The notes under the pieces are model-generated. The model saw only the letters and a list, made by a program, of their open reading frames with translations. It had not been told where the DNA came from and searched no databases. The position numbers and the translations under genes were made by a program. DNA of 64,000 nucleotides. Source: Salinigranum marinum (GTDB lineage: Archaea > Halobacteriota > Halobacteria > Halobacteriales > Haloferacaceae). The stretch covers positions 1,922,001-1,986,000 of the forward strand of contig NZ_CP100461.1 in NCBI RefSeq assembly GCF_024228675.1. The letters run 5' to 3'. Positions 11,051-12,654 of this stretch are shown piece after piece; the first letter of the stretch is position 1, and the number at the start of each line of letters is the position of its first letter.

Positions 11051-11123
11051 GCCGGTGTAGCTCAGCTGGCAGAGCGATTCCTTCGTAAGGAATAGGCCGA
11101 GGGTTCAAATCCCTCCACCGGCT
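11051..11123 (+). tRNA. tRNA-Thr (anticodon CGT)
   Basis: The cloverleaf can be drawn by hand. Acceptor GCCGGTG pairs with CACCGGC (11116-11122). The D stem is GCTC/GAGC, the anticodon stem ATTCC/GGAAT with loop TTCGTAA, so the anticodon is CGT (reads ACG). The T stem is GAGGG/CCCTC with loop TTCAAAT, and the discriminator base is T. CCA is not encoded and no intron is visible. The final 13 bases are duplicated at 11970-11982, marking this tRNA as an integration target. Confidence 0.97.
11111..11123 (+). repeat. attL-like direct repeat within the tRNA-Thr 3' end
   Basis: CCCTCCACCGGCT forms the 3' T-stem strand, the 3' acceptor strand and the discriminator base of tRNA-Thr. An exact copy occurs at 11970-11982. 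Integrases of archaeal plasmids and viruses often recombine at tRNA 3' ends and leave such a repeat. Confidence 0.7.
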
Positions 11124-11142
11124 TGATATTTCAGGTTCAAAG

Positions 11143-11159
11143 CCCCTACGAGATAGGGG
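11143..11159. repeat. Short perfect hairpin downstream of tRNA-Thr
   Basis: CCCCTA-CGAGA-TAGGGG forms a 6-bp stem with a 5-nt loop, 20 bp after the tRNA. It could protect the tRNA precursor 3' end or be a leftover recombination or replication feature of the inserted element. There is no T tract behind it. Confidence 0.4.
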
Positions 11160-11342
11160 TGGCGAAGTTTACAAACCACCAGTCGAATCTCCCTCGTTCG
11201 GGTCGTTAGCGCTGTTTCTTACGAAGACGCACTCGGAGAACAGTTCGAGAACTTCTGCGAGAAGCATGGGTTCAGCCGCAAATACGTAGCAACCCGTGGC
11301 ATCGAGCTGTTCATCCAGCAGTACGAGGCCAAAGAGCAGTAG
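11157..11342 (+). pseudogene. Truncated ORF, C-terminal part of a small unknown protein
   Basis: The frame is open from 11157 (behind a TAG at 11154) to the TAG at 11340-11342, but has no plausible start codon. From about 11217 it reads as ordinary protein: YEDALGEQFENFCEKHGFSR, then KYVATRGIELFIQQYEAKEQ and stop. This looks like a helical C-terminus, possibly of a small DNA-binding protein. The 5' part is absent, as expected if integration or deletion removed it. Identity unknown. Confidence 0.4.
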
Positions 11343-11407
11343 CACAGCTTCCGGGCCACCAGGTCCGTTACTCTAGCTATCTAGAACAAACTTTCGAGGA
11401 CACGCTT

Positions 11408-11418
11408 CGATAATTAGC
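11408..11418 (+). promoter_or_regulatory. Candidate TATA box of the secreted repeat protein gene
   Basis: CGATAATTAGC lies about 46 bp before the ATG at 11459 and about 31 bp before an in-frame TTG at 11444, in an AT-rich stretch. It would place a transcript start close to 11440. Confidence 0.4.
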
Positions 11419-11458
11419 ATCTGTCTCCATCGAATACTCCGTCTTGGATACATTTGTG

Positions 11459-11833
11459 ATGAAAGCAATCGACATCACGGTTGGACGCACTGCCGTCAAA
11501 ATACTCCTCGTTGCGGTCGTTGTGGCTGCCGGAGTCTTCGGTGGCGTTGGGACGGCATCGGCCGAACCCATGGATGGGAAAGGGAACGATCCGTATCCGC
11601 CGAGTCTATACGCGTCACTCGATGGCAAGGACAACTATGTGTACCCACCGCCGGGAGTCTACGCCTCGCTTGACGGGAAGGGCAACGATGTGCCCACCCT
11701 TCCGCCGAGTCTGTACTCGTTTGATGGAACAGAGAACGATGCCACGATTGACGCGTTCCCGATCAACAACGTCACCGTCTTCGCCGCGACGTACGTTGGG
11801 AGAGGCGGTGGATCTGGTAAACCCAGTTTCTAA
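11459..11833 (+). CDS. Small secreted protein with tandem DGKGND/PPSLYAS repeats
   Basis: A 124-residue protein. A Sec-type signal peptide covers residues 1-35 (hydrophobic core 13-30, cleavage expected after TASA). The mature part has imperfect repeats of 16-17 residues: MDGKGNDPYPPSLYAS (38-53), LDGKDNYVYPPPGVYAS (54-70), LDGKGNDVPTLPPSLYS (71-87) and a partial FDGTENDATID (88-98). The C-terminus ends GRGGGSGKPSF. Repeat copies differ at many codon third positions, so the duplication is not recent. Codon use is less GC-biased than in neighbouring genes. It lies inside the island bounded by the 13-bp repeats. I recognise no family; the Asp/Asn-rich loops might bind calcium or form a surface adhesin-like structure, but that is inference. 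Confidence 0.6.
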   Translation: MKAIDITVGRTAVKILLVAVVVAAGVFGGVGTASAEPMDGKGNDPYPPSLYASLDGKDNYVYPPPGVYASLDGKGNDVPTLPPSLYSFDGTENDATIDAFPINNVTVFAATYVGRGGGSGKPSF

Positions 11834-11881
11834 CAATTCGGTTCACTTATGCGAAATATATCGTTCGTTTTGTTCCACCAC

Positions 11882-11887
11882 TTTTTT
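11882..11887 (+). terminator. T-tract, likely transcription terminator
   Basis: A TTTTTT run about 50 bp after the stop of the repeat protein gene. Archaeal termination usually needs only such a T-rich tract in the non-template strand. Confidence 0.4.
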
Positions 11888-11969
11888 GTGCGTGATTTTG
11901 CTTCAAAGCCCGTTGTTCGAGTACATAAACGACAGCACATACAGAATATTTAAACTTTTGCGTAAGAGG

Positions 11970-11982
11970 CCCTCCACCGGCT
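11970..11982 (+). repeat. attR-like copy of the tRNA-Thr 3' end
   Basis: CCCTCCACCGGCT is identical to 11111-11123, while the bases on both sides differ. The 846 bp between the two copies are AT-richer than the chromosome around them. AT-rich sequence continues to about 12200, so a second, older insertion or a larger decayed element is possible. Confidence 0.65.
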
Positions 11983-12297
11983 CTTTCTACCGAACGAAGT
12001 GAACTGACGAGCGTCGCGTGGCGAGGGCAGAGCACAGCGTTCGGGACGGGACGCGTCCTCGGGAGGACAAAAGAGGTTACCGTCCAGCTCTGCCCAAAAC
12101 ATATCGAAAATAACCATCTATCTTGTGTCCGTATTGCTAGCGAACAACGCTTATTAGTTTGCAATATTTGGACGAACCGATCTGTTACTGGCGAATCGTC
12201 TCAATACAATAGGTAGGGTGATACGCCGTTCGCGCCCCGGACTCGCGTCGTCCACGCGGTGTGTTCGACCGCGCGGTCCGGGACTAGCCCTCACACC

Positions 12298-12654
12298 ATG
12301 AACATCGACCGCCTGACACTTCTCGCGCCCGGAGACGCGCCGAACATCGACGCCGACAGCCACCTCGACGACGCCCGCATCCGCGAGACAGGGACACGGG
12401 TCGTCGTCTCGGTCCTGGCCGCGGCGGTCGGCACGGACGACGTCACGGGCTCCCGCATCACCGTCTCGGGCGGCCGGACGGCCGGCGACGAACCGGGGCG
12501 TCGCGCACGCGAGTTCACCTACTCGGGGGAGGTCGTCGACGTCTCGACGACGCGCTGGCACCCAGGAGTGCACAGGCTCCGGTTCGCGTGCCGGCCCGGG
12601 TCGCTGTCCGACGGCGAGTCACGGACGACGCCACCGGAGAGCGCACGCCTGTGA
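12298..12654 (+). CDS. Hypothetical protein, possible element-border gene
   Basis: A 118-residue frame from an ATG at 12298. The first 90 residues have haloarchaeal character: strong G/C third positions, Asp-rich stretches (NIDADSHLDDARI) and a valine strand (TRVVVSVLAAAVG). The last 25 residues are Arg/Ser/Pro-rich and less convincing, so the true protein may be shorter or the 3' end decayed. No family recognised. It lies just after the AT-rich island. Confidence 0.4.
   Translation: MNIDRLTLLAPGDAPNIDADSHLDDARIRETGTRVVVSVLAAAVGTDDVTGSRITVSGGRTAGDEPGRRAREFTYSGEVVDVSTTRWHPGVHRLRFACRPGSLSDGESRTTPPESARL

Follow-up and report, generated by a model that had tools for sequence, protein, structure and literature searches.

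A probable integration scar at a haloarchaeal tRNA-Thr gene, and hairpins that repeat tRNA ends in haloarchaea

The tRNA-Thr locus and its insert

In the window, the whole stretch of 64,000 nucleotides analysed here, an intact tRNA-Thr(CGT) gene ends with a 13-bp sequence, CCCTCCACCGGCT, and an exact copy of this sequence stands on the same strand 859 bp further downstream. The features of the locus, in which the names of the repeat cores anticipate the reading given below, are as follows:

11051..11123, plus strand: tRNA-Thr(CGT), intact, the integration target (ARAGORN; Rfam RF00005, 72.1 bits)
11111..11123, plus strand: candidate attL core CCCTCCACCGGCT, the final 13 bases of tRNA-Thr(CGT) (exact repeat)
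11124..11369, no strand assigned: left foreign arm, GC 0.537 (not present at the empty site in genome G002; composition)
11217..11342, plus strand: small-gene remnant SYEDALGEQFENFCEKHGFSRKYVATRGIELFIQQYEAKEQ*, start codon lost (DNA match to a gene in genome G083)
11372..11385, no strand assigned: conserved palindrome TCTAGCTATCTAGA, located 5′ of the secreted-protein gene (common to the copies in G001, G073 and G085; related elsewhere)
11459..11833, plus strand: exported-protein gene, intact, 124 aa (DGKGND repeats, C-terminal GRGGGSGKPSF; small paralogous family)
11835..11969, no strand assigned: right foreign arm, 135 bp, GC 0.378, without a credible gene
11970..11982, plus strand: candidate attR core, the second copy of CCCTCCACCGGCT (exact repeat; the G001 island has the same 13 bp as its attR)
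11983..12021, no strand assigned: original downstream flank of tRNA-Thr, displaced (CTCTTTCTACCGAACGAAGTGAAC...; matches in G002 and G003)

An earlier note on this DNA had claimed a 13-bp duplication of the tRNA-Thr 3′ end around AT-rich DNA that carries a 5′-truncated ORF and a small secreted-protein gene, and all of these are borne out. A pattern search of the whole genome (4.9 Mb) found two copies only of CCCTCCACCGGCT, those at 11111–11123 and 11970–11982; the repeat is thus unique in the genome rather than occurring at random frequency, a possibility that the note had raised against its own proposal. By composition, about 7e-5 copies are expected by chance within 860 bp on one strand, and about 0.8 copies genome-wide. 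The insert between the copies (11124–11969, 846 bp) starts at the exact end of tRNA-Thr, and TTGATATTTCAGG lies directly 3′ of the tRNA. Its GC content is 0.517, compared with 67.6% for the window, and every other 846-bp stretch of the 64 kb has a higher one (mean 0.676, sd 0.037). Near both ends of the insert, at 11134–11145 and 11900–11911, stand the near-identical sequences GGTTCAAAGCCC and GCTTCAAAGCCC, a pair that may represent recombinase arm sites or may be due to chance.

The truncated ORF at 11217–11342 lacks a start codon, and a 52-aa gene of another haloarchaeon, G083, can be aligned with it (76% DNA identity over 116 bp). The G083 gene sits in a cluster of small genes, one member of which matches the virus-protein family PHROG 16527, and the cluster looks mobile-element-like. 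The secreted-protein gene is intact, and Pfam gives no family for this protein or for the gene fragment. The family of the secreted protein has members in six of the 148 genomes of the taxonomic family, at the window locus (11459–11833) and at L075, L079, L080, L081, L082 and L083. The members are characterized by an upstream palindrome, a signal peptide and DGKGND repeats, which form tandem DGKGND-xPPxLYS units, and all of them except a truncated paralogue in G000, the window's genome, end with GRGGGSGKPS followed by F or L. The palindrome TCTAGCTATCTAGA is a possible operator. Furthermore, a histidine kinase and a BAT/HTH_10 regulator adjoin the G000 paralogue and the relatives in G002 and G003, three genomes of one genus (the domain scan covered the G000 locus only), and the family perhaps encodes the precursor of a secreted signal.

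Empty and occupied sites in the genus

The tRNA-Thr gene was located in 60 relatives, and 17-kb stretches from 20 of those were compared. An empty-site allele, which the earlier note had asked for in related genomes, was found in G002, a member of the same genus with the same neighbouring genes as in the window, Trm5 upstream and CBS, DphB and ArtA downstream. In G002, CTCTTTCTGCCGAACGAAGTGAGG follows tRNA-Thr directly. When the distal 13-bp copy of the window with its CTCTTTCTACCGAACGAAGTGAAC flank is compared with the sequence at and after the tRNA end of G002, core and flank agree at 32 of 33 bases, and in the window CTCTTTCTACCGAACGAAGTGAAC is found only after the distal copy. The comparison of the flanks thus places the insert precisely at the end of the tRNA. 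As a separate observation, the window has, at 12298–12654, a small ORF in the interval from the tRNA flank to the CBS gene; it has a relative in G003, and the short interval of G002 has no room for it.

Two other genomes of the genus carry large islands at tRNA-Thr. The G001 island is 15.5 kb long and is bounded by an attR identical to the 13 bp of the window, while that of G003 is about 65 kb long with an attR of 21 bp. The chromosomal flank beyond attR is common to the window, G001 and G003; for example, the window flank agrees with that of G003 at 90.6% over 53 positions. Each island has a Phage_integrase gene (Pfam E 8.6e-14 in G001 and 5.4e-13 in G003), which starts about 50 bp inside attR in G001 and at the same position in G003, and this tyrosine recombinase is in both cases the first gene inward from attR. 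Because these integrase-bearing islands occupy the same tRNA, tRNA-Thr has served as an integration site more than once in the genus. In the window, the right foreign arm takes the position where the sister elements of G001 and G003 carry the start of the integrase. No integrase or integrase fragment was found in the insert, which has no homology to the sister integrases or to the genes at the left ends of the sister elements, and the similarity of its left end to theirs is not significant; the left ends of G003, G034 and one G030 copy resemble each other. In G001, furthermore, about 420 kb separate tRNA-Thr (G001:C1:1098205) from DphB (1517369), although the two are neighbours in both G000 and G002; this genome has undergone a large rearrangement, and one of its breakpoints lies close to the island.

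Echo hairpins behind haloarchaeal tRNA genes

In several relatives, a second copy of the tRNA end is found only about 100–200 bp downstream. When 40 genomes were searched with a pattern for the inverted T-arm that accompanies it, GGRATTYGAAYCAGGGA, 29 matches were obtained, compared with none for the reversed control, and nearly all of the matches are found a short way behind tRNA genes, which are of many isotypes. Of the 49 tRNA genes of the window's genome, 16 have a stretch within 400 bp downstream that agrees with their own 20-base tail at 16 or more positions; the tails of other tRNAs used as control give an expectation of 0.56, and the number of upstream copies is zero. Copies of the own tail accompany 19 of 42 tRNA genes in G038 (1.6 expected). 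The usual layout of these elements, here called echo hairpins, is tRNA, spacer, inverted T-arm, core, and a direct copy of the last 20–22 nt of the same tRNA; examples are L105–L133, L111:1500–1590 and G000:C1:1807524–1807721. The pairing of the arms carries no independent weight, as they were chosen for matching. Two inner base pairs that were no part of this selection are formed in 34 and 31, respectively, of 35 sequences, through several pair types, which points to a genuine helix.

A covariance model of the echo found matches in 58 of 59 genomes of the class and in all 32 genera, with 1 to 42 copies each. Outside haloarchaea, one marginal match was obtained in 53 genomes from a phylum sample of 60. 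The window's genome has 15 matches, each of them shortly after a tRNA gene and on its strand. Among the usable pattern matches in named genomes, at least 58 of the 81 in the group not marked as non-haloarchaeal are within 400 bp downstream of a tRNA, a lower bound as some later loci of that group were not checked by name, while none of the 26 non-haloarchaeal matches is so placed. At tRNA-Thr, the model has matches in G003, G001, G009, G022, G028 and G030. There is also a tandem case: at G123:C1:2656895–2657283, echo units follow one another at a spacing of exactly 111 bp with identical scores, and their uniformity suggests a recent expansion.

Rfam has no family for this hairpin, its models matching nothing but the tRNAs and ribosomal leaders, and a search of open-licence papers gave no description of it beyond a remark on tRNA remnants in Hfx. 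The hairpins are thus apparently an undescribed family. On balance we favour the view that tRNA-specific echoes, class-wide, undescribed and sometimes tandem, supply copies of tRNA tails at integrase sites, with the tRNA-Thr locus as one such position in relatives. If the family is truly undescribed, the question is whether it is a pre-tRNA processing or regulatory RNA, a selfish tandem element, or a spare attachment site.

A probable integration remnant and its alternatives

The repeat in the window is by itself no proof of integration, because copies of tRNA 3′ ends commonly arise here in another way. Indeed, a duplicated tRNA 3′ end in haloarchaea is weak evidence and not sufficient alone to call an integration, since about one third of the tRNA genes of the window's genome have a nearby copy, many of them in a structured hairpin. 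The proposal of the earlier note, that the locus is the footprint of a site-specific integration, gains its support from the empty site in G002 and from the integrase-bearing islands at the same tRNA. We put the probability at about 0.82 that an element integrated site-specifically at tRNA-Thr(CGT) and then decayed to the 846-bp scar. The repeat, the empty site and the integrase-bearing islands that sister species carry at this tRNA are direct observations. A tyrosine-recombinase element would have entered the 3′ end of tRNA-Thr(CGT) by site-specific recombination, so that the tRNA remained whole (attL) and 13 bp of a tRNA end were displaced (attR). It would then have shed most of its DNA, including the integrase, and the 846-bp remainder would have kept the start-less gene fragment and one intact gene for an exported peptide. 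We infer both the integrase of the lost element and the origin of the scar by internal deletion.

The insert is bounded on both sides by the tRNA 3′ end as a direct repeat, has an empty-site counterpart in G002, is foreign in composition and carries a gene fragment related to a gene of a mobile-element-like cluster, but contains no integrase gene. Because the integrase is absent, the insert is regarded as a remnant and not as an intact member of such elements. Three points count against the scar: there is no trace of an integrase, the left end is unlike those of the sisters, and the exported-protein gene is found outside the att sites in G001. This G001 copy (L075 18701–19472), the closest relative with 78% identity and at the same tRNA-Thr locus, lies beyond attR, between the tRNA flank and an echo hairpin, unlike the window copy, which is between the att sites. 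The gene is either cargo that moved in G001 or a resident caught up in the history of the window locus. Because the G001 relative is outside the att sites, we have less confidence that the gene came with the element; both versions still require a site-specific event at the tRNA.

The best surviving alternative, though an unlikely one, is that the distal 13-bp copy is no attR but the worn direct repeat of an echo hairpin or of a tandem echo array. A second copy of the post-tRNA hairpin would then follow, and unrelated events would have exchanged the intervening DNA around a secreted-protein gene that was already resident. Such a history would fit the commonness of tail copies in the window's genome (16 of 49 tRNAs), the echoes that several relatives, G003 and G001 among them, have at tRNA-Thr(CGT), the recurrence of post-tRNA sequence after the direct copy in arrays, and the position of the G001 secreted-protein gene between the tRNA flank and the echo. 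However, echo copies run 20–22 nt from TTC after a GACCGTGG-type core, whereas the copy in the window has 13 nt only, is 859 bp away, and is preceded by AT-rich DNA unrelated to the echo core. The echo model R1 has no match at the tRNA-Thr locus of the window, where the best match to the own tail within 400 bp is 11 of 20. Moreover, the foreign DNA starts immediately after the last base of the tRNA, and an identical 13-bp boundary serves as attR in the integrase-bearing G001 island. With 13 nt, no core and no model match, an echo element was rejected as the main reading of the window repeat.

The earlier note had left two fates for the element, decay or a minimal satellite mobilized in trans. 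Decay is supported. That the insert is a satellite, still mobile and moved by an integrase supplied in trans, is very improbable, even though both att cores are intact and identical and related integrases are present in the genus. The 846-bp unit as a whole occurs once among 148 family genomes, in which separate relatives exist only for two gene-sized parts of it, and the sole gene besides that of the exported peptide is broken. For the query and database pairs searched, no plasmid, phage or viral-contig relatives were found: the gene-fragment query had none in plasmids or phages, and the secreted-protein query none in viral contigs or plasmids. Finally, coincidence, a 13-bp match that happens to lie next to AT-rich intergenic DNA, has almost no probability left and is refuted by the empty site; although about 0.8 copies of the 13-mer are expected per genome, this copy is 859 bp off on the same strand and carries the displaced flank of the tRNA, matched in G001, G002 and G003.

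As an integration remnant, the window locus is ordinary and of a kind already known. Its interest lies mainly in the echo hairpins and in the genus-level series at one tRNA: an empty site, islands of 15.5 kb and about 65 kb, and a remnant shorter than 1 kb. Among published cases, the closest is that of Haloquadratum walsbyi, where tRNA-Thr1 is partially duplicated 6.7 kb downstream as an imperfect copy of 57 nt with no integrase nearby, a structure read by its authors as the remnant of a prophage or integrative plasmid (PMC3119063). The two cases share the tRNA-Thr target, the partial 3′ copy downstream and the lack of an integrase, while the window differs in its 846 bp, its exact 13-bp copy and its demonstrated empty site. 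In Haloferax, integrated elements with repeats of tRNA 3′ ends and XerC/D integrases are known (PMC7921747). Unlike the tRNA elements of Haloferax gibbonsii LR2-5 (PMC7921747), the window element has no integrase, and those of G001 and G003 have it at the attR end and not beside the complete tRNA. Archaeal att sites are sometimes very short, as in the SNJ2-type tRNA attachment sites (reviewed in PMC8371274), and the window resembles SNJ2 in its very short core at a haloarchaeal tRNA 3′ end. The target of the window element is tRNA-Thr, whereas SNJ2 uses another tRNA. SNJ2 itself targets tRNA-Met. In the haloviruses HF1 and HF2, as they are cited in PMC3119063, a truncated tRNA-Thr adjoins an integrase gene, and they resemble the window in having haloarchaeal tRNA-Thr as an integration target.
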